In this document: positions 22,725 through 37,220 of the stretch, in pieces
Position numbering within the stretch: position 1 is the stretch's first letter
How the letters are laid out: each line of letters starts with the position of its first letter
From: Robertkochia sediminum
GTDB taxonomy: Bacteria; Bacteroidota; Bacteroidia; Flavobacteriales; Flavobacteriaceae
DNA length: 64,000 bases
Reading direction: 5' to 3'
Assembly: GCF_016786255.1 (NCBI RefSeq)
Contig: NZ_JADMKT010000062.1
Span: 1-64,000 of the forward strand
The notes under the pieces: generated by a model
What the model was told of the DNA's origin: nothing
The model's database searches: none
What the model saw: only the letters and a program-made list of their open reading frames with translations
Position numbers and translations under genes: made by a program

Positions 22725-24284
22725 TTACTCAGAAGGCTGTGGTCCTTGCTCCTTAGCCGCTTTTCTCCTTTTTTTCAATTCTACAGAGATCTCATTTACC
22801 TTTTCCTCGGTCAGATCATAATTTCTCATGATATACATGGCCAACAGGGTTCCTGCTATCGGAAGTAAGGTATAGAACAATCGCAATCCTGTGATCGCTT
22901 CTTCCGGTTGTGTATCTGCTCCCTGGGTAAATCCAACAAGCCCCATGATGAGTCCGGTAGAAAGTCCGGCGATCGCCTGTCCGAATTTTACCATCCACCA
23001 ATAGATCGCTCCAAAGGTTCCCTCTTTACGCGGAAGACCAAATTTAAGTTCATCCAGATCACAAACATCGGCTGTCATACTCATCATCAGGGTAAACAAA
23101 CTACCGATCCCGAAAGAGAAGAAAGGCAGGGCAAAAATGAACAGCCAGGGTTTTCCGGGTACAAAAAGGAACCAGAAAAGGATGTATCCTATAATGGAGA
23201 TCCCTTGTGAGATCATAAAGGTTTTCTTTTTCCCGAACTTCTCAGACATCTTGGTCACGATAGGGATCACCAGGAAGGTTGTTGCCAAAGCTCCAAGGCT
23301 ACCGTGCAGGGCAGGCCAGTTTCCTGCAGCACCTGCATCACCACCAAACAGGTGATATACGATAATGAAGAAAGAGAACGCCGCGATGGTATTAAAGGAA
23401 TTGAACACGAGGAAGGTGGCCCCACAAAGCTTCATAAAAGGTTTGTTCTTCCAGGCTTGTTTGAATCCGTCACCGATCTCTACAAAGCTCTCTTTAATAT
23501 GACCAAGGGTTATGGGCTTTAGATTGGTATCGTTAAGGGTAGACCTGCTCTTGATAAAGATCGAAGGGATCATCGCGAGGAACATACACCCGATCCCCAC
23601 GTAGATGGACACCTCACGTGCTCCGGCATCGGCGGTCTCAAACCACTCAGGCTTATAGAGCACCACCCAGAACCAGGGTGCGATCACCCAGGCCCATTGC
23701 CCGATCCATTGAGCTACGGCCATAATACGGGTACGTTCGTGAAAATCGTCACTCATCTCATACCCCATGGCCACATAGGGAACACTAAATATGGTAAGCC
23801 CCAAATAGAAAACGATTGAGAGGGAAAGGAAATACCAGAAATTATAGGCGAGTCCGTTAGCTTCGTAAAGCTGCCACATGGCTACAAAGGAGAATCCCAT
23901 GATCAGGGCACCTATAAAGACGTATTGACGGCGACGCCCCCACTTAGACTTGGTATTATCTGAAATGAATCCCATAATAGGATCGGTGATAGCATCAAAA
24001 AGACGCGGTACAAAGAAAATGAGTCCCCACAACAAGGGAGGGAATCCGAGGTCTTCGACCAGGATCACCATAAAGACCCCCAGGGCTGCCGGGAACATCT
24101 GGTTGGCCAGCATCCCGAATCCGAAGGCGATCTTTTGCCCCCATGATACTTTTTCGCTTTCGTCATGAGTACTATTCATATTCATGTTATTTGCGGCGTC
24201 CTCAGGTGCCATAGCCACCTTATCGCCGGTTAGTTCTTGAGCATTTTTCATTAGGTATTGTTTGGGCCTGTCTGCAATGCTCAC
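22725..24284 (-). CDS. MFS glycoside/cation symporter (GPH family)
   Basis: A 519-residue membrane protein with twelve predicted segments. Family marks are RLFDAITDPIMGFISDNTKSKWGRRR between helices 2 and 3, FSVPYVAMGYEM, and MMSMTADVCDLDELKFGLPRKEG in the second half. GPH symporters bring glycosides or short oligosaccharides across the inner membrane with H+ or Na+. The first ~33 residues are unusually long and polar, so the start may be the ATG near 24185. In this operon it should import the beta-gluco-oligosaccharides released outside and feed the cytoplasmic phosphorylase. No SusCD pair is present to carry them over the outer membrane. Confidence 0.9.
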   Translation of the reverse strand: MSIADRPKQYLMKNAQELTGDKVAMAPEDAANNMNMNSTHDESEKVSWGQKIAFGFGMLANQMFPAALGVFMVILVEDLGFPPLLWGLIFFVPRLFDAITDPIMGFISDNTKSKWGRRRQYVFIGALIMGFSFVAMWQLYEANGLAYNFWYFLSLSIVFYLGLTIFSVPYVAMGYEMSDDFHERTRIMAVAQWIGQWAWVIAPWFWVVLYKPEWFETADAGAREVSIYVGIGCMFLAMIPSIFIKSRSTLNDTNLKPITLGHIKESFVEIGDGFKQAWKNKPFMKLCGATFLVFNSFNTIAAFSFFIIVYHLFGGDAGAAGNWPALHGSLGALATTFLVIPIVTKMSEKFGKKKTFMISQGISIIGYILFWFLFVPGKPWLFIFALPFFSFGIGSLFTLMMSMTADVCDLDELKFGLPRKEGTFGAIYWWMVKFGQAIAGLSTGLIMGLVGFTQGADTQPEEAITGLRLFYTLLPIAGTLLAMYIMRNYDLTEEKVNEISVELKKRRKAAKEQGPQPSE

Positions 24285-24305
24285 ACCGGAGCATGATGCA
24301 CAGGG

Positions 24306-25376
24306 TTATTGATTATTAAGGAGTTCCAGGTACTTTTCTTTTACCACAAAAAAGGCCTCCTTTTTATTTCTGTCTATATCCACAAGGCCCCAATATTCTT
24401 CGTTTGGCGCCCCGTCGTAGGGCACTCCTGAGCTGTTTGGCGCCCATCCACCGGTGTCCTGCTGATCCGGATTTCCGGCCTTCCACCATTCATCAGAAAA
24501 GGCGAAGAGGGTTACTCCAAGTGTAACATCTTTATGAGCGAATACCTCATCGAGAATATTCGCATTGGCATCGGCCTGAGCTTTTTGATTCTCGCCCTGA
24601 GCATAGCCTTCTGCAGCCACGGTCATATAACTATCACCACCGGCTTCCGAAAGATACATCGGTTTTTCACTAATGGCGGCCCATTGACCAAAAATATCTC
24701 CGGGGCTGTCCCAGCGGTATACGTTCATACCCCATACATCGACATTTGGACAAAGTTCAAGTATTTCGTTCGTTGGAAGTTCCCCATGAGCTGTAGCCAC
24801 CGGGTGTCCGGGGTCTGCCTGGTGGATCCGATCGGCTGTCGTATTCAGTGACCGATACCAGGTGTTTATATTATTACCAAACCACTCGGGATGGTAATTG
24901 TATTCATTCCCTAACTCCCAAAACAGGATAGCCGGGTGATCCTTATACTTATTTACATAGTCGATGCAGGTCCCGGAAAGAATATCGAATACCCCGCCTT
25001 GGTTATACCCAAAGCCTACGATCACCTTAATACCGGCATTGTGAAACTTATCGAGAACGCCTTTACTGTCTATGGGGGCATAGATCCTTACCGTATTTAC
25101 CCCTGCTTCTTTCATGAGGTCAAGATCGCGATCCATGTCGTTAAAATCCCTTTCGGTGCGGCCTTTGGCTACCGGGTTATAGCACAACCCTCTGATCTCA
25201 TATGCGGCACCATCTACCAGCACCTGTCTACCGGAAACGGTTACCTCAGAAACAACCGGATCCGGATCCGGGTCGGGAGCAACAGTATCTGTGGTTGAAG
25301 ATTCTTTTGAACACTGCCCCAGTCCGCCGGCCACAGCGACAAGAAGCGTAATACCAAACCAATTCATGAGTTTCAT
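24306..25376 (-). CDS. Clan GH-A glycosidase lipoprotein (GH2-barrel/GH72-like)
   Basis: A 356-residue lipoprotein (GGLGQC). A Pro/Asp linker (DPDPDPVV) is followed by a single TIM barrel: YEIRGLCYNPV, EAGVNTVRIYAP, acid/base Glu158 in FWELGNEYN, and nucleophile Glu244 in LSEAGGDS. The motif order is that of clan GH-A retaining enzymes. The sequence reads most like GH2 catalytic domains without the sandwich domains, or GH72-type beta-1,3-glucanosyltransferases, and I cannot choose between them. It starts 4 bp after the GH17 gene, so the two are translated together and should act on the same glucan. Confidence 0.75.
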   Translation of the reverse strand: MKLMNWFGITLLVAVAGGLGQCSKESSTTDTVAPDPDPDPVVSEVTVSGRQVLVDGAAYEIRGLCYNPVAKGRTERDFNDMDRDLDLMKEAGVNTVRIYAPIDSKGVLDKFHNAGIKVIVGFGYNQGGVFDILSGTCIDYVNKYKDHPAILFWELGNEYNYHPEWFGNNINTWYRSLNTTADRIHQADPGHPVATAHGELPTNEILELCPNVDVWGMNVYRWDSPGDIFGQWAAISEKPMYLSEAGGDSYMTVAAEGYAQGENQKAQADANANILDEVFAHKDVTLGVTLFAFSDEWWKAGNPDQQDTGGWAPNSSGVPYDGAPNEEYWGLVDIDRNKKEAFFVVKEKYLELLNNQ

Positions 25377-25380
25377 AAGT

Positions 25381-26655
25381 TTATTTATTTAAGACGAGGG
25401 GCTTTAATACGGTGATCATCAGGCTATCGACATGGCCCTCAAAAGTTTTTTCTATAGTATTTCCATTTCTGGTGAGTCCCTCAAAGGCACCCTGATCTAC
25501 CAGGTCCCAAAGGGCATATTTCGCCTTACCATCTACGGTAAGCAATCCGAAGTGATTTTCTGAACCACCGGGGTTTTGCGCATCCTTCCAGGGCTCGTCA
25601 AAGGCTTCAAAATAAAAGCAGCTTATTCCTTCAGCATCGGTCCACGCCCGAATATATTCATGGTACAGGGCTTGTTTATACTCATCGGTAGCCCTTGAGC
25701 CTTCATCGCCATACAATTCGGTGGTATAACTGGCCCAACCGGTCTCCCCGATATGCACCGGCTTCTGAACGCCGATACTGTCGAGGTAGTCTTTAACGCT
25801 CTCGTATTGCATCCTGGCGTAATCGATTGCGGAAGTCATCGAAATTTCAGCTTGTTCAGCAGCTGTCAGGCTATCTCCATCTGCAATGGCATTATGCCAA
25901 TATTCCGGGGTATAGTGGGTATCGTGAAACGGATAGGTATGCGCCGAAACAAAATCGACGGCCTTGGCAAGCGCTTCCAGGTCTTCCTTGTGATAAGAGG
26001 CATCTCCACCTCCCCAGGAAGCAAAATTATCAGAACTGGTCACCCATAGGTCAGCTGGCAGCTCCCCTTTTTTCTTCAGGTCCTGCACGTAGTTCACATA
26101 CTTGAGGATCACTCCGGGTTCTACCCAATAACTCCAGGCCCAGTGCACCATGGCCTCATTACCAATGGCGATGATCTTTACGATATCCGGATACGTTTTC
26201 GCCAATTCCACAGCGGTGTTCACCTCTTTGGTATTGCGATCTGCATCTTCTCCGGTGTGATCGGGTTCTGACGTCCAGGCATTCTTACAATCGATCCAGG
26301 CTCCGAGCATCACATACATCTCAAAAGATGGATCTTCCTGTTTAAGTTCCTTAATAGCCTTTAGGATATTTCCGGCCTGTGCAAAATGTACGTTATACGT
26401 TCTTAGCAGGTGAATGTCCATAGCCTCCATGATCAGAAGATCTTCCTTGAGCTCTTCCAGGGTAGGCTGAATATCCCTGCTAGTCTGGCGGTAACCTCCA
26501 TAAGATATGGCCCTGAAATCAGGGTTCCCCAGAATGTCAGCCGCAGTTCTATCGGTTACGGTTTCAACATCGGCCTTAGGCTCCTGCTGCTTGCATGAGG
26601 CAAGCAACAGGATTCCCAATAAGGCATATAGTGTATTGGATAGGATTCTTTTCAT
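25381..26655 (-). CDS. GH17 endo-beta-1,3-glucanase lipoprotein
   Basis: A 424-residue lipoprotein with the start at 26655 (MKRILSNTLYALLG... LLASC). A longer frame would overlap the upstream gene. GH17 marks: ISYGGYRQTSRD near the N-terminus, acid/base Glu167 in AIGNEAMVHW, VSAHTYPFHD, and nucleophile Glu304 in PVHIGETGWAS, followed by YFEAFDEPWK. GH17 enzymes cleave or rearrange beta-1,3-glucans such as laminarin. It lies 13 bp after the phosphorylase gene and 4 bp before the GH-A gene. As a lipoprotein it should cut glucan outside the inner membrane, with products taken in by the MFS symporter. Confidence 0.88.
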   Translation of the reverse strand: MKRILSNTLYALLGILLLASCKQQEPKADVETVTDRTAADILGNPDFRAISYGGYRQTSRDIQPTLEELKEDLLIMEAMDIHLLRTYNVHFAQAGNILKAIKELKQEDPSFEMYVMLGAWIDCKNAWTSEPDHTGEDADRNTKEVNTAVELAKTYPDIVKIIAIGNEAMVHWAWSYWVEPGVILKYVNYVQDLKKKGELPADLWVTSSDNFASWGGGDASYHKEDLEALAKAVDFVSAHTYPFHDTHYTPEYWHNAIADGDSLTAAEQAEISMTSAIDYARMQYESVKDYLDSIGVQKPVHIGETGWASYTTELYGDEGSRATDEYKQALYHEYIRAWTDAEGISCFYFEAFDEPWKDAQNPGGSENHFGLLTVDGKAKYALWDLVDQGAFEGLTRNGNTIEKTFEGHVDSLMITVLKPLVLNK

Positions 26656-26668
26656 TCCAACGGATTTA

Positions 26669-29600
26669 TTAAAGGAGTACTTCCAGGGCTTTAACAGCTC
26701 CGGTACGCTCAAATACAGCTGCAGTGGTCTCCTTATCCAACTCCATTCCTGAAAGCTCTTTTACGTCACCGCTGGCAAAGTGAACCTTCACGACACGGCT
26801 ACCGGCTTTCTTATAAACCACCGGCACCTGGCAGCAGGTAAACCCAAGTGAACCGGCCTCCAGTGCGATCGACCGGGTAGCTCCCTCGAGATCTACATAG
26901 TTAAAGGTAGTCCCTTCTGTAAGGAATTCAGCATCTTTTAGCAGTGCAGGATTAAATCCGAGCAATCCGTCTTTTACGTAAACACCAAGCTCTCCGAAAC
27001 GGCTAAGCACATCTTCTTTCACCTGACCGGTCATACCCGGCTGCTGCGCTCCCTTATTACCTGGAGTATGCGAATAAGGATCGGTCGGGAAAGCTCCGTA
27101 ATTTTCCGGTGATTTATCTGCTCCGATACCGTCGTTTACTGCAAAATAGTGTGCTTTGATCTTTTCAACAACGCCTTTATCAAGTTGCTCCTCCACGGCA
27201 CGCTCACTGATCTCGTAAACCGCTAACAACAGTTTAGATACCATGTGCCAGTAGATCGACCCAAGCCCCTCATACCCGAAGAAGGTCCCTGATCTACCGG
27301 TAAAGGCCTTGTGATTAAAAACCTCTTCATAGATCTCAGCCAATAATCCTTCTTCCTTTTGAACAAGCACCTCGTACTTCTCAGGAAGCTCAGCAAGCGC
27401 TTTCTTCAGGAAATTGACATTATTCATATACCCGTTAAAGTGGTATCCGCCGTCTTTATCGGCAGAGATCACCTGATGGTTTCCATCGGCCACCAACTGC
27501 TTGAGCAGCTCAGAGCGCTCTACGCTGTTGGACGGAATGGTATTTTTATGCATAAACCTTGGCAGCTCCTTGTTCGGATAGAGGATATAACTGTTCTGGT
27601 CTTCACGATATAGCTTACTATTTCTTAGGCTATCGAGCACTTCGATACTTTCTGCTACAGAAAGGTATCCTGAACTCAATACAGCTACCTGTCCTTCGAG
27701 CATTTCAGGCAGGTAAGAGATCGCCACCTTATCATCCCCTTTAACGGTCATCAGGTTATAGGCGTGATATAGGTTATCTGCTCTCTTGTTGGCTCTGATC
27801 GAATGTTCCATCCATTCGTTGGCCAGGGCAGCAAACTGTTTAACAGCAGCCAGGTCAAGCGATCTTTTCGCCCCTGAGAATCCGTTCTCATAAACTCCCG
27901 TGCGGTAGGTACTACCGGCTTCACCCAGCAGGTCCATAACGCTCTTTCTGTCGGCATCAGAGATCGCCCCTTCCAACATCCCATTATGGGCTTCGAACGC
28001 TTTAACCACTTTCTGGAAGAAATCGTACAGTTCTTCAGAGATCTCGGTAGAAGATTCTCCATTACGCTCCATAAGGTCTTCCATAAACTTCAGGAATCTT
28101 CTCAGGTAATAGAGGGTAACCATTGACACCCCGTTACCCACCAAAGCGTTATTGGCATCGTTCCACTCCGGACGTTGGGTATTCATCCAGATACCTCCTT
28201 CAGGAATAAAGTTAGACACCTTAGCCAGGACGGTGGCAAGGATCTTCTCCATGAAGTTTACACGATAAATACCGCCCTTTTGATCCTTGATCAGCGCTCC
28301 GTCGGCTCCCATTTCATCACGTGAAGTGCGAATGGCCTTATCTCCCGCCTCATCAAAGTCGATGGTATTTTTAGGGTCTTTAAGGATCTCACTGTATGCT
28401 TTAATGCGGTATGGTACGTTAGCGTACACGAACATATCGCGGTTAAAGTATTGCGCGAGGGTTTTCGGATAGTAATCTTCTGCAAATTCAAGGAATTTAA
28501 GCAGGTAAATGATCTGGTGATCTCCCCAGTATCCAATATACGACCACGGATTGTCCGGCTCGATGGTCTCCCAGTCAAATCCGTCCTTGGTCACACGATA
28601 CGGATTGTACCCGTCAAAGGTCGTAGCGTTGAGGAATTTATGGATCATACCTTCGATAAACTCCGGGTACGAATGCGCCAGCGCCTCCCAGTTCTGGAAG
28701 ATGTCACGCCAGTTCCCCTGGTAATCCAGGATCTTGGAACCGTCAATTTCGTTACGGGTATTGATCGAGAACTTGTTCCAAGGCCTACTTGGGTCTCCGT
28801 GTCGACGGCTAAACTTCAACGGAAGGTACTCGAGGCACAGACGTTTAAAGTCCATGTCTTCTGTCTCTGCAGCCATCATTGAGACCGCCTTAAGGTCGAA
28901 TACTTCAGGCATCGCCTCAAGGGCTGCTTTATTCGCAGCGTATACCGCTTTATTGGCTTTCTTGATATAAGGTAGGAAGTCGGATTTTTCGATCTGATAA
29001 TTATGATCAAAAATACCACCCCTCATAATGTTGAACATGGTATTGGCAAAGTGACGGGTAATACGACGCTTATCGGCAGTAGCCTGTAATCCGTCGGCAG
29101 CACCAACCAGTGCAACCAGTTCTTCTGAACCGGCCTCTACATCTTCGAGGATCACTTTGTGAAGCTCCCTATTCTCTTTGATCTCAGCTTTAAGGCTTAC
29201 GATATCAGACACCGATTTATTCACATCGGCGATAATGCTCCATTCTTTATTTGCTCCCGGTTCCAGGGTTACGGCTGCGTTTAGCATATAGGCGCCTTTC
29301 TCGGCACGCATATCCACTTCTGTTTCGATATCGGCTCCCTGTCTGAAAGCGTCTATCTGAAGGGAAGTAAGTAAGTACTTAGGATTCTCAAGACCGTGCG
29401 ACCAAACAATATTAGAACGAAGGGCCTCACTAGGCTCTGCCTTATCAACAATGATCGCGCTCAGGCTGTAGATCCCTAATCCGGTATCGGTCTCGAGTTC
29501 ACATTTTTTATAAGCGTCAACCAGGTTACTGCTGGCATTTTGCAACGCATCTTCAACCCCGTAAGGTAGGAGATTCTGCAATCCGTCAAGCAAACGCACT

Positions 29601-30133
29601 TCGGCAGCCGCCTTCCCGGTATTGCTAAGGGTGGCCTTACGAATAAAGCCATACTGCGTGCTGGAATTCCACTCGTAGCGGAAGCTCAGCTCCAGGTCAT
29701 GGTTGATCTCTTCAAAGATCACCTTATTCCCATATGCGTTCTTGTAGAGGTTATTCGTTGTTTTATAAATTCCCTTTTGTCTGATCGAAAAAGGCTCCCA
29801 AAGTTGGGTCTTCCCGTTCTTCTTTACCAAGAAAACAGACTTGCTACCGGTGATCTCTGCCGATTCTGTGATCTTATCGTCTGTATAATATGGAAAGAGG
29901 GCGAAGTTACTATTCTTTCTACCAGCTGTTAAACCTCCGTTACTGGAGATAAACATCCAGTGGTTGGAGTTACTCACGATACTCATAAAAAAAGGCCTCA
30001 TGTTATCCACATGGGCGATCTTAAAATAGGTCTCGTTATTAATGTCCACTTCTTCTAATTGCACATTTGATCTCCCGAATGAAGCGGGCTTATCTCCCAG
30101 AAAAATTGTCTCAGATCGACTCGATTGACTCAT
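26669..30133 (-). CDS. Beta-glucan phosphorylase (GH94/GH149/GH161-like)
   Basis: A 1154-residue cytoplasmic protein, without signal peptide. The N-terminal ~330 residues are beta-sandwich-rich (NSNHWMFISSNGGLTAGRKN). From about 340 an (alpha/alpha)6 barrel begins; NWRDIFQNWEAL places Asp477 where GH94 relatives have the catalytic acid (x-R-D-x-x-Q). NPWSYIGYWGDHQIIYLL, FIPEGGIWMNTQRPEWNDANNAL and GSTYRTGVYENGFSG are further large blocks. The size (over 1100) fits the beta-1,3-glucan phosphorylase families GH149 and GH161 better than GH94 cellobiose phosphorylases (~800). The expected reaction is phosphorolysis of beta-1,3-gluco-oligosaccharides to glucose-1-phosphate. It is the first gene of the operon. 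The family choice needs a profile search. Confidence 0.72.
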   Translation of the reverse strand: MSQSSRSETIFLGDKPASFGRSNVQLEEVDINNETYFKIAHVDNMRPFFMSIVSNSNHWMFISSNGGLTAGRKNSNFALFPYYTDDKITESAEITGSKSVFLVKKNGKTQLWEPFSIRQKGIYKTTNNLYKNAYGNKVIFEEINHDLELSFRYEWNSSTQYGFIRKATLSNTGKAAAEVRLLDGLQNLLPYGVEDALQNASSNLVDAYKKCELETDTGLGIYSLSAIIVDKAEPSEALRSNIVWSHGLENPKYLLTSLQIDAFRQGADIETEVDMRAEKGAYMLNAAVTLEPGANKEWSIIADVNKSVSDIVSLKAEIKENRELHKVILEDVEAGSEELVALVGAADGLQATADKRRITRHFANTMFNIMRGGIFDHNYQIEKSDFLPYIKKANKAVYAANKAALEAMPEVFDLKAVSMMAAETEDMDFKRLCLEYLPLKFSRRHGDPSRPWNKFSINTRNEIDGSKILDYQGNWRDIFQNWEALAHSYPEFIEGMIHKFLNATTFDGYNPYRVTKDGFDWETIEPDNPWSYIGYWGDHQIIYLLKFLEFAEDYYPKTLAQYFNRDMFVYANVPYRIKAYSEILKDPKNTIDFDEAGDKAIRTSRDEMGADGALIKDQKGGIYRVNFMEKILATVLAKVSNFIPEGGIWMNTQRPEWNDANNALVGNGVSMVTLYYLRRFLKFMEDLMERNGESSTEISEELYDFFQKVVKAFEAHNGMLEGAISDADRKSVMDLLGEAGSTYRTGVYENGFSGAKRSLDLAAVKQFAALANEWMEHSIRANKRADNLYHAYNLMTVKGDDKVAISYLPEMLEGQVAVLSSGYLSVAESIEVLDSLRNSKLYREDQNSYILYPNKELPRFMHKNTIPSNSVERSELLKQLVADGNHQVISADKDGGYHFNGYMNNVNFLKKALAELPEKYEVLVQKEEGLLAEIYEEVFNHKAFTGRSGTFFGYEGLGSIYWHMVSKLLLAVYEISERAVEEQLDKGVVEKIKAHYFAVNDGIGADKSPENYGAFPTDPYSHTPGNKGAQQPGMTGQVKEDVLSRFGELGVYVKDGLLGFNPALLKDAEFLTEGTTFNYVDLEGATRSIALEAGSLGFTCCQVPVVYKKAGSRVVKVHFASGDVKELSGMELDKETTAAVFERTGAVKALEVLL

Positions 30134-30764
30134 AGAAAATTTATATATGTTTTTTTATCTCTTCAGGGCCATTTTCACACCTTTACAAGGCCTGAAAACA
30201 ACCGTAAAAGCTCGCAAATGGGTCTACCCCAATTTTAAGTCCGAAATTTAACTATTATTTCACGAAAATAAGACCGCATAACTCATAAAAAGATTCAAAG
30301 ATTTTTAGTAAATGGCACTTTCCCGAGAAAAAAACACAACATCAGGAAATGACTGACGGTATTGCCTTACAATTAGACAGTTACATATTTTAAACGCGTG
30401 AAAAATGACGTAAAACGGTCCTGATATCCGGGAATACAGTAGCTGTAAAAAGAAATAAAATCATGTGCTTTTACCTCACCTTACTGCTAAAGCACCTGTT
30501 AAGCGAAAAAAAAGATGCCATGTACATTAAAAAATACCACAACAATGGTATCAATCCACCTCAACATTGGGCTTTTATGTAAAGAGATAAGAAACAGCTG
30601 AAAGCTGCACCTTTTAGTCACTCTGGCTTTACTCCGGGCCTCCAGAGTTTTATGTTGAATATCAATACCTTAACGAAAACACCTATTTTAGAAACGTAAC
30701 ATTTGTTACAGCACACTTTTGGCTACCATTGTACTTTTACACCATAATACAAACAAGGAATCAT
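30134..30764. promoter_or_regulatory. Divergent control region, glucan operon / thioredoxin
   Basis: A 630-bp gene-free region between divergent genes. Near the operon start an interrupted inverted repeat TTCAGGGCC...GGCCTGAA (30162-30170/30189-30196) could be an operator or a leader stem. I found no convincing -33/-7 pair for the minus strand. No regulator gene is adjacent. Elsewhere the region is AT-rich and featureless to me, apart from the thioredoxin promoter listed separately. Confidence 0.4.
30696..30731 (+). promoter_or_regulatory. Promoter of the thioredoxin gene with palindrome
   Basis: Bacteroidota-type boxes: -33 TTTG (30702-30705) and -7 TACCATTG (30724-30731, one mismatch to TAnnTTTG), 18 bp apart. 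GTAACATTTGTTAC (30696-30709) is a 14-bp palindrome covering the -33 box, a good place for a regulator. Confidence 0.5.
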
Positions 30765-31127
30765 ATGCCTACAGTAAAACTTACAACAGCGCAGTTTAAA
30801 GAAGACATCTTCGATTATACAAAAGAGAGAGAATGGAACTATAAGGGAGATAAACCTGCTATTATCGACTTTTATGCCGATTGGTGCGGACCGTGTAAAA
30901 TGGTGGCTCCGATCCTGGAAGAACTTGCCGATGAGAATCCTGATATTATCATCTACAAGGTCGATACCGAAGTAGAGCAGGAGCTTTCGCAGGTATTTCA
31001 GATCAGAAGTATTCCAAGCATCCTGTTCATCCCGATGGACAAGCAACCTATGATGCAGGCAGGAGCCCTTCCAAAGCATGCGCTACAGGAGGTCATAGAC
31101 AAAGAACTATTAAGCACGGTTGCTTAA
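30765..31127 (+). CDS. Thioredoxin
   Basis: A 120-residue cytoplasmic thioredoxin. The start at 30765 (MPTVKLTTAQF) follows an appropriate promoter. The track of open codons goes 12 further upstream, through the -7 box, so it is not used. Active site Cys41-Gly-Pro-Cys44 sits in FYADWCGPCKM, the cis-Pro in IRSIPSILF, and the C-terminal helix ends the domain. It reduces disulfides in cytoplasmic proteins with NADPH via thioredoxin reductase. A few residues (KEDIFDYTKEREWNYKGDKP) are an extended N-terminal helix typical of Flavobacteriaceae copies. A perfect terminator follows 23 bp after the stop. Confidence 0.92.
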   Translation: MPTVKLTTAQFKEDIFDYTKEREWNYKGDKPAIIDFYADWCGPCKMVAPILEELADENPDIIIYKVDTEVEQELSQVFQIRSIPSILFIPMDKQPMMQAGALPKHALQEVIDKELLSTVA

Positions 31128-31150
31128 TACTTGATCATTTTGAACGAAAA

Positions 31151-31179
31151 AACCGGATCCTATGATCCGGTTTTTTTCT
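31151..31179 (+). terminator. Terminator after thioredoxin
   Basis: AACCGGATC (31151-31159) pairs perfectly with GATCCGGTT (31164-31172), followed by T-run. Confidence 0.85.
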
Positions 31180-31230: not shown

Positions 31231-32502
31231 CTAATAGGATAGTTTATTGAGCTGGCAACGCACCTTCTTACCTCGTACGGCAGGTGTATTGGGTTTATCG
31301 GCGCATTCGCACAATCGTGTACCTCCATAATCGTTAAAGATCTCATGCGCATCACTTCGCGCCCATACCGATACCAGGGCCATCTTTTCAGGATCTTCCA
31401 CACAACTGCCATCCACATCAAAGGCGTGAATGGTATTCTCATAAAAATACACCAGGTTATTCTTGGTATTGGATCCGCTTGACCATTGGCGGAACTCATT
31501 CTGCATACCCGCATCGAATTCCACGATCCATTCGTCTTCGGTTTGTCCCACGGTCTTTACCTGTTTATTGATATCGCGTGCTGCAAAGGTCTTGAACTGG
31601 TCCGGGCATGCCGGCGTGGTCATGGTATAATACATCTCAGAAATCGAATGGTTGTGGTACGGATACAGGCTGTTGACCATTTGAACAGTCATCCCTACTT
31701 CAGCCCCTACTTTATGTCCGCCGATCTCATCGATACGCAGGAGACCCCAATGTCCGAGGATCTCTCCGTATGCGTAGCCCCCACGCACCTCCATAAAGTT
31801 GCGCTTGTTGCGTTCGCTGTCTTCTGCATACATCGGGAACCAACCTACCGATGCCCATAGATTGGGCAGGGAGCGCGCACTAACATCATAAGGGAAGTTA
31901 GGCGGGGTCACCACCTGCTCTCCGGTAACGATATCATAGAAATTATCGGTAAGCACCTTACCATAGGCCTTTACCGAGTCGTTGGTGACCTTGGTATCGA
32001 AGAACTCCTCAAAGGTGGTGCGCTTCATCCATTTGGCTACCGGAGATTGCTCCTCAAGCTTTCCTCCGGGACTGTAAAGCCAATCTACTTCTTTTCTGGC
32101 CGCAAAGCATTTTTTTGCAGCTTCCTGATTGTAGAGGATCTGGTAGATCTGTTTCACCAACAATTGCATATCGCGACGGTCCATGATACACATTCTTTTA
32201 ACCCCTCCCAGGGTTTCGAACACCGCTACATCAGACTGGCGGCATCCGCCTTCTTCAGGATTCTTGGTCAGGGCCTCCGCCAGACCACGCAGGTACAGCA
32301 TAGACTCTTCCCAAAGAATATCGATATACTTTTGTTCGGCCTTGGAGTACTTCACCTCTTTTTCAAGGCATTTACAATCTACATCCACCACATCTTCCTT
32401 AGCGATAAAATCGGGCAGCACCAGGTCATCCTGTGCATGCCCCAGGGATCCGAGCAGCATAAAGCAGCTGCAAATAATCATACTTAATACGTTAACTCTC
32501 AT
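31231..32502 (-). CDS. Exported cupin resembling DddY-type DMSP lyase
   Basis: A 423-residue protein with the start at 32502 giving a signal peptide (GSLGHAQ), so it is periplasmic. The first ~200 residues are helical and Cys-containing (DVDCKCLEKEV, EGGCRQSD, MCIMDRRD). The last ~200 form a cupin with metal motif YPYHNHSISEMYY: His283, His285, Glu289 and Tyr291. A later His lies in NTIHAFD, and the domain ends ALVSVWARSDAHE. Signal peptide, ~400 residues, helical N-domain and HxHxxxExY cupin match DddY, the periplasmic DMSP lyase that makes acrylate and dimethyl sulfide. I infer the activity from motif and layout only; it could be a non-lyase cupin. The porin-like gene starts this two-gene unit 23 bp upstream. 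Confidence 0.5.
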   Translation of the reverse strand: MRVNVLSMIICSCFMLLGSLGHAQDDLVLPDFIAKEDVVDVDCKCLEKEVKYSKAEQKYIDILWEESMLYLRGLAEALTKNPEEGGCRQSDVAVFETLGGVKRMCIMDRRDMQLLVKQIYQILYNQEAAKKCFAARKEVDWLYSPGGKLEEQSPVAKWMKRTTFEEFFDTKVTNDSVKAYGKVLTDNFYDIVTGEQVVTPPNFPYDVSARSLPNLWASVGWFPMYAEDSERNKRNFMEVRGGYAYGEILGHWGLLRIDEIGGHKVGAEVGMTVQMVNSLYPYHNHSISEMYYTMTTPACPDQFKTFAARDINKQVKTVGQTEDEWIVEFDAGMQNEFRQWSSGSNTKNNLVYFYENTIHAFDVDGSCVEDPEKMALVSVWARSDAHEIFNDYGGTRLCECADKPNTPAVRGKKVRCQLNKLSY

Positions 32503-32525
32503 ATCAACTTCTTTGTTTTTGTTAT

Positions 32526-33746
32526 TTAGAAATACCACTGTACAGACAAATTACCCCTAAGCTCCCATTTATCAGGATTCACCGAACCGGCACCGGGACC
32601 ACTATTGTCAAAATTATCATTCATCCACCAGGCGTTCTGTCCGAAGAGCATATCGAACCAGATATAGAATGGCCCTGCCTGCAAGACTGCTCCCGGATTG
32701 ATCATCCTGGAATCATGGAAGGTGTCTTCATCCTTGATCACGGTGCTGTATTCCATATACACATTGAGCTTATCGAAAAGCCACCATTCAATATCCCAGA
32801 ACCTACGCACATTCGCAACATAGGTGGTCGCCTTTGACGCCACCAGACGTGTATCGGAGAAGAACCCCATAAGCACGGTGCGATCGTCTACGCTATCGGG
32901 ATTATTAGGATCGTATTCATATCGGGTGGCCTGAAAATTAAAGTTCCAGTCGTTGTAGTTCCCCACATAGTGAAAAGCAGCTGCCCAATGGTTCCCGTTT
33001 CCGTCCTTTAATGGATTACGAATCTGCCCCCACTGGCCTGACACTCCGAATTCCGTTGTTTTCGTAGTGCCGTAGCCAAAGACTTTGGCATATCGCAAAT
33101 TCACCTGGTGGCGTTCAAAATTCTGCTGGTCACCAGAAACCACAAGATCGGGGGCCCAGCGATTGGTGGCTGTTGGATCGTTGTACTCTTCATTCCGGAA
33201 ATAAGCCGCGTGAAAATGATTCCCTTTATTTTTATAGATATATTGAAATCCGGTATCGTGATCTCCCTCAAGGCCATGATAGTAGTTCAAGGAATACCAA
33301 AAGCTGGAAGAAACGGAAGGCAGGGCACCAAAAGGCGCTTGGGAGATCCCGTATAACAACTCGTGATTTTCATTGAATTGTATCCCTACCCACATATGTT
33401 GCATGGCAAACATATAACTCCACCATCGTGCCTGAGCCGAAAACTTCAATTTAGCGCCTTCCCCTTTTTTCATGCCGTGTTCCCCTGAGACCGACAACCT
33501 GAACTGATCGAAATACGAACCTCTGCGGTTGGCGCTGTTATCCTGTTCCCAATCCTGAAACGAAGACCGAAGCCAAATGGCGCCCCCAACTTTAAATGAG
33601 GTATATGGTGTAACATCGATACCGATATTCTGACCAGGAGATTTTTCATCGGGTTTCAAAATATTGCGCTCCTGGGCGAAACTATATTGCATAATAAAGA
33701 GGACACCTAGTACGATACAGGTCCTTAGAAGGGTTTTAAAAAACAT
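32526..33746 (-). CDS. Outer-membrane porin-like beta-barrel protein
   Basis: A 406-residue protein with a signal peptide (MQYSFAQ) and alternating aromatic/polar strands throughout (KLKFSAQARWWSYMFAMQHMW, WNFNFQATRYEY), ending in NLSVQWYF with the C-terminal Phe of outer-membrane barrels. It is about 16 strands long by length. It is not a TonB-dependent or SusC protein (no plug, no TonB box). Similar carbohydrate- or acid-type porins import small solutes. It is first in a two-gene unit with the DddY-like cupin, 23 bp apart, so it could admit that enzyme's substrate to the periplasm. It is tail-free of any regulator. Confidence 0.75.
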   Translation of the reverse strand: MFFKTLLRTCIVLGVLFIMQYSFAQERNILKPDEKSPGQNIGIDVTPYTSFKVGGAIWLRSSFQDWEQDNSANRRGSYFDQFRLSVSGEHGMKKGEGAKLKFSAQARWWSYMFAMQHMWVGIQFNENHELLYGISQAPFGALPSVSSSFWYSLNYYHGLEGDHDTGFQYIYKNKGNHFHAAYFRNEEYNDPTATNRWAPDLVVSGDQQNFERHQVNLRYAKVFGYGTTKTTEFGVSGQWGQIRNPLKDGNGNHWAAAFHYVGNYNDWNFNFQATRYEYDPNNPDSVDDRTVLMGFFSDTRLVASKATTYVANVRRFWDIEWWLFDKLNVYMEYSTVIKDEDTFHDSRMINPGAVLQAGPFYIWFDMLFGQNAWWMNDNFDNSGPGAGSVNPDKWELRGNLSVQWYF

Positions 33747-34000
33747 TTTGTTGGCTGATTTTTAATGAGTTACGAAATTATTAAAAAGATCACACCCCAT
33801 GACCGCATTCCGACATAATGCCCTATTTATCAGATAACAAAGAATGTAGAATAGCAGGTAAAGTAGTACAGAAAATCACTTATTCACCTAAATCATTACA
33901 TGCAAAAAGTCTTACAGGGGATACGAATGGCGTTTTATCGATAAGCGGAATTCCAACAATAATATTTCCTTATTTTTAAGAGATATATCTGCCTGAAAAC

Positions 34001-34756
34001 ATGGTTTTTATGAAAAATACAAGACGGAAATTCAACTTCAAAACCGATAAAATACTCCTGCTGTACATGCTTTGTTTGCTGCTTTGCCCTCTGGGGGTCT
34101 ATGCTCAGAACCAACAAGATGATCCGGGAGATCCTCCTATGGTTGCTAAAGGCCGTTTTTACACCAACCTGGCTTTTTCGCTGGATCAGCGAAACGCCAA
34201 AAATGAGGATCAGCTGCTGCGCGAGGTCATCGACCAGGACAAACTCAACTTTCGGATATCAAGTGCCGCGGGATATGCGCTGAAAGATAATTTCACGATC
34301 GGCCTGGGCCTTAGCTACGGAAGGCTGCAGGAAGACATCACCTTTATCAATGAAGACGATCAGGAACAGACCAATTGCAGCCTGGGACATGACGTCTCCT
34401 TTATACCCAACATCCGGCAGTATGTGCCGGTGAACAAAAGCTTCCAAATATTCGTGCAAGCCGATTTCCGATTCTCCATAGGGGAAGAGCTCACCCGGAA
34501 ATTTCTCCCGAATGAGATCGAAAAAATAGAAGGTAATTTTATTGAAACGCGACTGGGAGTAACACCGGGGGCAGTTTTATTCTTTAACCGCAACTGGGCA
34601 TTTGAAACCTCTGTAGGCCTGGTCGGACTTTCTTCGAAGTGGTCTGAAGAGACTGTTAATAATGATGAAGCGAACAGAGCCCGGATCACCGAAAACAATA
34701 TCGACCTTAAAGTAAACCTGCTCTCCCTTAACCTCGGGGTGGCCTATTATTTTTAA
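34001..34756 (+). CDS. Outer-membrane beta-barrel protein
   Basis: A 251-residue protein with a signal peptide ending VYAQ. The mature part is an eight-stranded-like OMP barrel: FYTNLAFSLDQ, FRISSAAGYALKDNFTIGLGLSYG, AVLFFNRNWAFETSVGLVG, and the last strand LLSLNLGVAYYF ending in Phe. Starts at either ATG (34001 or 34010) are possible; the second is the tighter fit to a signal peptide. It is followed after 24 bp by a PCMD lipoprotein gene, probably an operon. Confidence 0.78.
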   Translation: MVFMKNTRRKFNFKTDKILLLYMLCLLLCPLGVYAQNQQDDPGDPPMVAKGRFYTNLAFSLDQRNAKNEDQLLREVIDQDKLNFRISSAAGYALKDNFTIGLGLSYGRLQEDITFINEDDQEQTNCSLGHDVSFIPNIRQYVPVNKSFQIFVQADFRFSIGEELTRKFLPNEIEKIEGNFIETRLGVTPGAVLFFNRNWAFETSVGLVGLSSKWSEETVNNDEANRARITENNIDLKVNLLSLNLGVAYYF

Positions 34757-34780
34757 TCATCAAGCATAACGCCTATAGTC

Positions 34781-35836
34781 ATGAGGAACTTCAGCATATT
34801 CATACTTTTAAGTTTTCTGTTCATCCTTTCCGGATGCATCTCAGACGACAAATTCGGCTTATCGCCTTATAAAGAGATCAAGACTTTTGAAATTGCGGGG
34901 CAGGCTGCTCCAACCGTTATAGACAAAGAAGCACTAACCATTACCATCCCTTTCAATGAGGGTGAAGACGTCTCCGCGAAAACACCTTCTAATATTGTCA
35001 TATCGAATCTGGCCACTATAGACCCTCCGGCCGGGGAGGCAAGGAATTTCACTGCTCCGGTGCTTTATACGGTAACCGCAGAAGACGGTTCCCAGGCACA
35101 ATGGGAGGTTATTGCCAGCGTCGCCGAACCACAACCCCAACTCCCCAACAGCAATTTTGATCTATGGTACGATACAGGGGGCTATATGCAACCCGGAGAA
35201 AATGCCGAAAGTACCATCTGGGATACGGCCAATGCAGGGGTAACGATCGCCGGGCCGGCAAATACAGTACCGGAAGACCTGGGCAATGGCGACCTTGCTG
35301 TAAAAATGGTGAGTACGAGGGCTCCTTTATTGGTTCGAATGGCAGCGGCCACGCTCTATACCGGTAGTTTTACCGATGGCTTCCCGGATCCTGTTGATCC
35401 TCGATCGAACATCGATTTCGGAACCCTCTTTTCCGGACAACCCAACGCCTTCCGGGTCGACTACCGCTACCTCCCGGGAGACGAATACCTCGACGGTCGG
35501 GGTAACCCATTACCCGGAGGCGACCAGGCCGACATCTACGTCTTACTGGAAAACCGGGATGGCGACCAGGTACAACGCGTTGCTACCGGTTGGTACCGCA
35601 GCAATATGGAAGTAACCGATTGGACCACCCTGGAAGTGCCTCTTACCTATGGTGAACTCCCTTCTTCTGACCCCACCTTTGAATACGCCAATATCAGGGC
35701 AGGCGAAGCCTGGGCCCCTGCAGGCACAAGGCCTACGCACATTACCGTGGTATTCTCGTCAAGTGCACTCGGGGATGATTTTACCGGAGCCATAGGAAGC
35801 GAATTATGGATCAATAACTTTGAATTAGTCTACTAA
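34781..35836 (+). CDS. PCMD-domain lipoprotein
   Basis: A 351-residue lipoprotein (LFILSGC). Residues about 25-115 are a beta-sandwich (FEIAGQAAPTVIDKEALTITIPF...YTVTAEDGSQAQWEV) of the DUF5018-like type. The PCMD (putative carbohydrate metabolism) domain follows, with NSNFDLWYDTGG, STIWDTANAG, and the terminal GSELWINNFELVY. The function of PCMD is not established; Bacteroidota often place it near surface glycan or adhesion proteins. It is flanked by an OMP barrel and a NylB-like hydrolase on the same strand. Confidence 0.8.
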   Translation: MRNFSIFILLSFLFILSGCISDDKFGLSPYKEIKTFEIAGQAAPTVIDKEALTITIPFNEGEDVSAKTPSNIVISNLATIDPPAGEARNFTAPVLYTVTAEDGSQAQWEVIASVAEPQPQLPNSNFDLWYDTGGYMQPGENAESTIWDTANAGVTIAGPANTVPEDLGNGDLAVKMVSTRAPLLVRMAAATLYTGSFTDGFPDPVDPRSNIDFGTLFSGQPNAFRVDYRYLPGDEYLDGRGNPLPGGDQADIYVLLENRDGDQVQRVATGWYRSNMEVTDWTTLEVPLTYGELPSSDPTFEYANIRAGEAWAPAGTRPTHITVVFSSSALGDDFTGAIGSELWINNFELVY

Positions 35837-35918
35837 ATAAAAATAATGTTCAGGGATGCGCAACAAACCGGAGCAAACATCACGATATCACGACATCACC
35901 ATTTAAAATCATCATACA

Positions 35919-37220
35919 ATGAAAAGATCACTAGTTATACTCTTTGCCACGATGCTTCCCCTGGGTGCATTGGCACAAGACAAACCTCTTAGCGCCAAGG
36001 ATTCGGAACCTCAAAAGATGGGGTGGATGCAGGGCTTCCCGCCGCCAGCCGACAGAACGATATCGGCCGTTGACGGCAGCTTCTTTAAGTTCCCGGCACT
36101 GCGCTACAGCGTGTGCCATATGCGTCAGTTTATGCCAACGGCAAATGTGCAGGCAGGCAATGAGAACCTGTATACTTTTGAGGTGGCCAATGATCCCAAT
36201 ATCGACGCTTTAACCTTTACACCGCTTGGCGAAAAAGGCACCATGACCTGGAAGGAGTCCCTGTATAAGAATTACACCGATGGAATGCTCATACTTCACA
36301 AAGGAAAGATCGTATACGAAAAGTACTTTGGCGCCCTGAAACCCGATGGTGTTCACGCTGCCATGTCGGTAAGTAAGACCTTTACAGGAACCCTTGGAGC
36401 CCTTTTGGTGGTTGAAGGCTTACTGGACGAAGACCAGGTGGCTTCCCACTACATCCCCGAACTCGAAGGCTCGGCCTTTGGCGATGCTACGGTGCGACAG
36501 ATCCTGGATATGACCACCGGATTGAAGTATAGTGAAGACTACGCCGATCCCAATGCAGAGATATGGGCATTTTCGGCTGCCGGAAATCCGTTCACCCGTT
36601 CTGAAGACCCTAACGCTCCATCCAATTATTACGAATACCTGCAAACTGTAAAAAAGGAAGGCGAGCACGGAAAGGTCTTCGGGTATAAGACCATTAATAC
36701 AGATGCCATGGGGTGGCTGGTATCCCGGGTTACCGGGAAGAGCATTCCGGAGCTTATTTCTGAGCGTATCTGGAAACCCATGGGCGCCCATTACGACGGC
36801 TATTACCAGATCGACGGCTCAGGGATCGCCTTTGCCGGGGGCGGCTTCAGTGCCAATATGCGCGACTTTGCCATGTTCGGAGAGATGATCAGGAACAACG
36901 GTTGGTTCAACGGCCGACAAGTATTGCCTTCAGCCCTTATCGACGATATCCGGGAAGGTGGAGATCGGGAGGCTTTTGCCAACGGAAATTACAAGAGTTT
37001 AAAAAATTGGAGCTACAGGAACATGTGGTGGATGAGCCATAACAAAAATGATGCTTTTATGGCACGAGGGGTTCACGGACAAGTAATTTATGTAGACCCT
37101 ATGGCCGAAATGGTGATCGTGCGTTTTGCTTCTCACCCTAATCCGAAGAATGCGTACATCGATCCTTATTCGCTCCCGGCATATGAGGCGGTAGCCGATT
37201 ATTTGATGGGCAAAAAATAA
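35919..37220 (+). CDS. Exported serine hydrolase, NylB/class-C-beta-lactamase-like
   Basis: A 433-residue protein with a signal peptide (LPLGALAQ). Catalytic motifs of the penicillin-binding/beta-lactamase fold: Ser150-x-x-Lys153 in AMSVSKTFTG, a Tyr motif in GYKTINTDAMGW, and RGVHGQVIYVDP near the end in place of KTG. The order and spacing match the 6-aminohexanoate-dimer hydrolase (NylB) branch. Members hydrolyse amide or ester bonds of short substrates. It is the third gene on this strand after the OMP and PCMD genes, 82 bp after the PCMD stop, and ends with a strong terminator. Confidence 0.85.
   Translation: MKRSLVILFATMLPLGALAQDKPLSAKDSEPQKMGWMQGFPPPADRTISAVDGSFFKFPALRYSVCHMRQFMPTANVQAGNENLYTFEVANDPNIDALTFTPLGEKGTMTWKESLYKNYTDGMLILHKGKIVYEKYFGALKPDGVHAAMSVSKTFTGTLGALLVVEGLLDEDQVASHYIPELEGSAFGDATVRQILDMTTGLKYSEDYADPNAEIWAFSAAGNPFTRSEDPNAPSNYYEYLQTVKKEGEHGKVFGYKTINTDAMGWLVSRVTGKSIPELISERIWKPMGAHYDGYYQIDGSGIAFAGGGFSANMRDFAMFGEMIRNNGWFNGRQVLPSALIDDIREGGDREAFANGNYKSLKNWSYRNMWWMSHNKNDAFMARGVHGQVIYVDPMAEMVIVRFASHPNPKNAYIDPYSLPAYEAVADYLMGKK

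Follow-up and report, generated by a model that had tools for sequence, protein, structure and literature searches.

DMSP is an algal osmolyte, and its lyases produce a climate-active gas; surveys count the carriers of these enzymes. The lyase DddY has been described from Proteobacteria (PMC3338564, PMC5395565), a polar survey found it in Alteromonadales only (PMC8520302), and in 2018 no Bacteroidetes were stated to be known with a functional DMSP lyase, in an article that also mentions a dddY-like gene in the cyanobacterium Synechococcus (PMC6309047). The dddY region of Shewanella holds fccA/fccB (flavocytochrome c and tetraheme cytochrome c) and acuI, with no mention of a porin in the text of that study (PMC3338564). 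The open-access literature that we searched yielded no description of DddY in Bacteroidota or of a porin-DddY link (descriptions elsewhere may exist), nothing relevant on DddY or a DMSP lyase combined with a porin, and no named outer-membrane channel for DMSP.

Comparison with these systems was made for a locus in the window, the whole 64,000-nucleotide stretch that was analysed of DNA from Robertkochia sediminum, a marine-type flavobacterium. Its cupin resembles the DddY enzymes of Alcaligenes faecalis, Acinetobacter bereziniae (5xkx/5y4k/8hle) and Shewanella (NF053571) in being a protein of about 400 amino acids, presumably exported, with a helical N-terminal half; the active-site residues are identical, the curated profile is passed and the fold agrees within 2.1 Å. 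It differs from them in its Bacteroidota host, in the porin directly upstream, and in the lack of adjacent acuI, dddA/C and flavocytochrome genes. The pair is probably a compact DMSP-cleaving unit, in which small zwitterions or carboxylates would enter through the porin and DMSP would be cleaved by DddY in the periplasm.

The cupin is a true DddY

The first-pass annotation, made from the sequence, had called the cupin DddY-like. Scored against curated models, it falls in DddY: it passes the Shewanella-type DddY equivalog NF053571 (716.4 bits, cut-off 650), while a second DddY model, NF043049, which we take to be the Alcaligenes/Acinetobacter-type model, gives 262.8 bits, under its cut-off of 800. 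Both DddY models match 34 of 34 aligned proteins. The Pfam DMSP_lyase model matches weakly, under threshold. A sequence search of the PDB with the cupin returned the DddY entries 5xkx and 5y4k at E about 1e-66 (9e-67), and the same two crystal structures are the best PDB matches of its AlphaFold model by Foldseek (E 7e-37, TM 0.91 by target, 2.1 Å over 395 columns), followed by the cupin DMSP lyase DddQ and, lower, DddK. With a profile E of 1e-215 and a fold E of 1e-37, the match is not a chance pattern. The model (pLDDT 88.5, pTM 0.89) has the helical N-terminal half and C-terminal beta domain of the cupin that had been read from the sequence alone.

The active site is intact. Residues Y280, H283, H285, E289, Y291 and H359 align to Y260, H263, H265, E269, Y271 and H338 of Acinetobacter DddY (5xkx) and are invariant across the 34 aligned DddY proteins. 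Following Li et al. 2017, we assign metal binding and the tyrosines of the pocket to H265, E269, H338, Y260, Y271 and H263 of 5xkx. The tyrosines and metal ligands of the DMSP-lyase pocket are thus all kept; the earlier numbering of H283, H285, E289 and Y291 in a cupin of about 420 residues was exact, and its late histidine is H359. The N-terminus is hydrophobic, with a cleavage-like site that reads GHA-Q in the sequence. By family, fold and active site the window cupin is a true DddY, 38% identical to the crystallised Acinetobacter enzyme and about 54-59% to most Shewanella DddY, and we upgrade the assignment accordingly.

Distribution of DddY

DddY is rare in the family of the window genome. 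A full copy is present in 3 of 397 sampled Flavobacteriaceae genomes, in 2 of 395 genomes of a Bacteroidota-wide sample, and in none of four congeners. The named Bacteroidota carriers are Flavobacteriaceae D16, Winogradskyella pelagia, Winogradskyella aurantia, Croceitalea dokdonensis, Christiangramia portivictoriae and an uncultured Christiangramia. Beyond Bacteroidota, DddY occurs in many Shewanella and Ferrimonas and in a few Marinobacter, Sedimenticola, Woeseiaceae and Campylobacteraceae, with a distant group in Rhodocyclaceae/Rhodospirillales. In the DddY tree the window protein clusters with flavobacteria on a starred branch, beside the Woeseiaceae and Croceitalea copies. This patchy distribution suggests horizontal spread of dddY without giving its direction. 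Viral contigs and plasmids held no DddY relative, so no mobile carrier was found, and synteny at the insertion site in the congeners gave no clear empty site. Shewanella fidelis (L014:9941-12535) carries a tandem dddY pair followed by a porin; the second dddY product, on a very long branch, is only 40% identical to the window protein.

Layout of the locus and its wider neighbourhood

The features of the locus are collected in Table 1. The coordinates, strand, sizes, order and 23-bp spacing given at first pass for the cupin and the 406-residue barrel all stood on recheck. The dddY reading frame can be extended through a GTG to 435 aa; the signal-like N-terminus belongs to the ATG form. Beyond dddY lies a palindrome with A and T runs at its flanks, a probable bidirectional terminator as judged by eye, which was not among the results of a computed pattern scan. 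The divergent region is presumed to be a control region shared by both arms; a motif scan recovered no convincing consensus promoter in it, so a shared control region is something that we infer only. Further away, on the minus strand at 22725-30133, a GPH-family sugar symporter, Glyco_hydro_2_C-type and GH17-type glycosidase-like proteins and a 1154-aa protein stand in a row, which looks like a separate glucan-use cluster.

Table 1 Features of the porin-dddY locus (positions in the window)
Feature	Position	Strand	Remarks
Thioredoxin-like gene	30729-31127	+	Convergent to dddY; closes the porin-dddY unit on that side
Inverted repeat AAAAAACCGGATC-CTAT-GATCCGGTTTTTTT	31147..31177		Between the thioredoxin-like gene and dddY; from sequence reading
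dddY, probably exported cupin DMSP lyase, 423 aa	31231..32502	-	ATG at 32502; 31231 is the final base of the stop codon
Outer-membrane porin, 406 aa, ~16 strands	32526..33746	-	First gene of the porin-dddY pair; ends 23 bp upstream of dddY
Divergent intergenic region, 254 bp	33747..34000		Between the porin-dddY pair (-) and the genes at 34001-37220 (+); from gene positions
Small outer-membrane barrel, OMP_b-brl-like, 251 aa	34001..34756	+	56% identical homologue near dddY of Winogradskyella pelagia
PCMD/DUF5018-type putative lipoprotein, 351 aa	34781..35836	+	Pfam PF13201 1.6e-33; 61% identical homologue near W. pelagia dddY
Serine hydrolase, class C beta-lactamase fold, 433 aa	35919..37220	+	Pfam PF00144 6.8e-34

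In W. pelagia the genes run porin-dddY-hydrolase-SDR-OMP-PCMD along a single strand; apart from the SDR, the window contains them all, split into two divergent arms. The small OMP, PCMD lipoprotein and serine hydrolase of the window (34001-37220) are kept as a group beside the W. pelagia dddY, and homologues of the hydrolase 67-71% identical to it adjoin dddY in W. pelagia and in Flavobacteriaceae D16. These arrangements bear on a reading in which porin, DddY and the products of the three divergent genes jointly process an algal compound that contains DMSP or is ester-linked. We regard such a larger unit as rather unlikely. All five window genes do have homologues on one strand within 6.5 kb in W. 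pelagia, and strain D16 has the order hydrolase-porin-dddY-SDR, but W. aurantia and Croceitalea have dddY and porin with no serine hydrolase nearby, and the hydrolase occurs without dddY in four of its six carriers. The hydrolase is therefore an associate and not a requirement, and its role as an obligate dddY partner is ruled out.

Porin genes are linked to dddY across two phyla

AlphaFold models the barrel (pLDDT 81.5) with about 16 long strands, and Foldseek ranks porins of the OmpF/OmpC/OmpU/OmpT type and engineered variants highest (E down to 1.6e-12), at 11-14% identity; the window barrel thus models as a 16-strand OmpF-like porin, alike in its predicted barrel to these diffusion porins. 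No family in Pfam or NCBIfam matched it, Porin_O_P (PF07396) included; a single family member, from Woeseiaceae, scores marginally above the Porin_O_P threshold (22.1 vs 20.9 bits). Net charge is negative in every group of the family, contrary to what is expected of a phosphate pore, and tryptophan makes up 4.1% of the flavobacterial dddY-linked porins and the Woeseiaceae one, against 1.9-2.2% in the other groups. Both features hint weakly at a pore for small zwitterions.

Whether the porin stays beside the cupin in other genomes had been raised at first pass, and the answer is strongly positive. In 34 of 50 named DddY-clade loci, and in the window besides, the gene next to dddY on the same strand encodes a member of the family; the count leaves out 11 distant loci of the Rhodocyclaceae/Rhodospirillales type, and one porin is cut by a contig end. 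Gaps between the two genes run from 6 to 500 bp, and both gene orders occur, in Bacteroidota and Gammaproteobacteria: the porin is upstream of dddY in flavobacteria and downstream in Woeseiaceae, Shewanella and Ferrimonas. The pairing is not limited to flavobacteria. Neither is the porin obligatory, since 16 of the 50 loci lack an adjacent one and the Rhodocyclaceae/Rhodospirillales-type loci yielded none. On a Woeseiaceae contig of 62% G+C, a porin of the flavobacterial type lies 6 bp behind dddY, which argues that adjacency outlasts a change of order.

As in the window, a porin of this family is the immediate same-strand neighbour of dddY in most Shewanella species sampled. There the porin lies downstream and the reductase and cytochrome genes upstream, whereas flavobacteria have the porin upstream and lack the reductase. 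Shewanella and Ferrimonas have up to eight paralogues of the family per genome, and in the porin tree those adjacent to dddY fall in several separate lineages, with at least five label changes on starred branches alone. Repeated pairing, and not one frozen operon, is the simplest reading of this tree; replacement between paralogues may also have occurred. The flavobacterial porin forms its own starred clade with the Woeseiaceae copy, so that nesting within the dddY-linked porins of Shewanella is ruled out. Among 395 Flavobacteriaceae genomes, the three with dddY hold the three best-scoring porins (492, 477 and 466 bits), clearly ahead of the next at 360.

Porin relatives adjoin betaine transporters and periplasmic reductases

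The family is present in 31 of the 395 Flavobacteriaceae genomes. At the 28 flavobacterial loci without dddY, 24 porins adjoin a betaine-type transporter (a BCCT in 23, a ProV-type ATPase in one), where chance adjacency to a BCCT would be about 0.1% per locus, a rough estimate that assumes one or two BCCT genes among about 3500. The BCCTs at the 23 loci are 68-86% identical to that of Christiangramia, which passes the general BCCT model and matches the glycine betaine uptake model under its cut-off. In Gammaproteobacteria, one Ferrimonas paralogue adjoins a CaiT-type carnitine/gamma-butyrobetaine antiporter (892 bits, cut-off 541), one Shewanella paralogue adjoins a choline/betaine-type ABC system (ProV-type ATPase), and nine sampled Shewanella/Ferrimonas paralogues, about half of the sample, adjoin flavocytochrome c reductases. 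Reductases of this type act in the periplasm, on small unsaturated acids. DMSP is the sulfonium analogue of betaines, so a zwitterion-passing pore would fit all three settings. In the porin tree, the link between the dddY-type flavobacterial clade and the betaine-linked clade is deep, with a long branch and weak root support, so the substrate could differ. The window genome has two BCCT transporters, with no porin near either gene.

Several of these neighbourhoods are of interest in their own right. In Christiangramia portivictoriae (L105:3634-7600) and at loci L147-L170, one or two OmpF-like porins are followed by a betaine-type BCCT and then, in most cases, by a gene for a protein of about 285 aa, of universal-stress type in the single case tested; such flavobacterial porin-BCCT groups are a candidate osmolyte-uptake unit whose porin has no family name. 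At eight Shewanella/Ferrimonas loci (L112, L114, L115, L118, L119, L120, L122 and L126), several porin copies have flavocytochrome c reductases and small tetraheme cytochromes as neighbours; there may be one porin per respired small organic acid. In two flavobacterial genomes (L144 and L145, genomes G029 and G657), a diverged member of the family adjoins a protein of about 1360 aa which, as read in L144, has solute-binding, PAS and SpoIIE phosphatase domains and is perhaps a sensor of the porin's solute.

OmpF-like pores are often unspecific, and the DddY might be genuine while the porin is a general co-operonic pore on which DMSP entry does not depend. The resemblance of the model to the OmpF/OmpC general porins and the 16 loci that lack the porin speak for this, yet the family is uncommon in Flavobacteriaceae, where nearly all its members go with betaine transporters or dddY, and several distinct Shewanella lineages adjoin dddY, which is not expected of a chance neighbour. 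We therefore judge a general pore unlikely. In its ties to dddY, betaine transporters or flavocytochromes, the family is unlike OmpF-type porins and Porin_O_P. The first-pass proposal that the unit has its own porin for a small zwitterion gains independent support, short of proof, from the relatives that adjoin betaine and carnitine transporters. With relatives of the porin found repeatedly next to betaine transporters or periplasmic enzymes for small acids, the pair looks like a dedicated way in for DMSP, joined to the enzyme that cuts it.

Proposed mechanism

For the porin-DddY pair as a DMSP-cleaving unit, we infer catalysis, pore substrate, export and co-transcription. The two genes would be transcribed together. 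The porin would let DMSP diffuse into the periplasm, perhaps along with DMSOP or further small zwitterions, and the signal peptide would export DddY to the same compartment. There the metal site of the cupin would bind DMSP and, by beta-elimination, yield dimethyl sulfide and acrylate, so that cleavage would proceed without import across the inner membrane; the dimethyl sulfide would diffuse away and the acrylate stay behind. It is very unlikely that DMSOP or a different beta-substituted propionate or betaine is the main substrate and DMSP cleavage secondary, as might be argued from the cleavage of DMSOP also by DddY (PMC10686828), from the title of another study, cited in the literature, which terms DddY a superfamily "with unknown primary function", from the distance of the window enzyme to the crystallised one and from the serine hydrolase nearby, since every aligned pocket residue is kept and the curated equivalog threshold is passed.

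The genes that usually handle acrylate were not found in the window genome; as neighbours of dddY such genes are common but do not define a DddY. AcuI is the normal acrylate detoxifier, and the search for it gave nothing over the cut-off and only general dehydrogenases, all below it; an acyl-CoA ligase resembles PrpE and matches the PrpE model below its cut-off. A homologue of the Shewanella flavocytochrome was likewise not found in that genome, by a weak search run without a positive control, and acrylate reduction of the Shewanella type was set aside as a partner of the unit.

Significance

The known DddY family gains a new member here, in a phylum for which we found no report of it in the open-access literature searched, and true DddY in several flavobacterial genera widens the list of carriers. 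The coupling to a porin with betaine-linked relatives is a new variation on the deployment of DMSP lyases. More broadly, the barrel may represent an undescribed porin family for betaine-like zwitterions and small carboxylates, common to Bacteroidota and Gammaproteobacteria, whose members would be combined as modules with one of three partners: a betaine importer of the inner membrane, a DMSP lyase in the periplasm or a flavocytochrome reductase in the same compartment. Its tryptophan-rich flavobacterial branch would be dedicated to DMSP and couple entry to periplasmic cleavage; we give this wider proposal an even chance. With a porin whose genes are linked both to DMSP cleavage and to betaine import, the passage of DMSP across the outer membrane becomes directly testable in culturable type strains.
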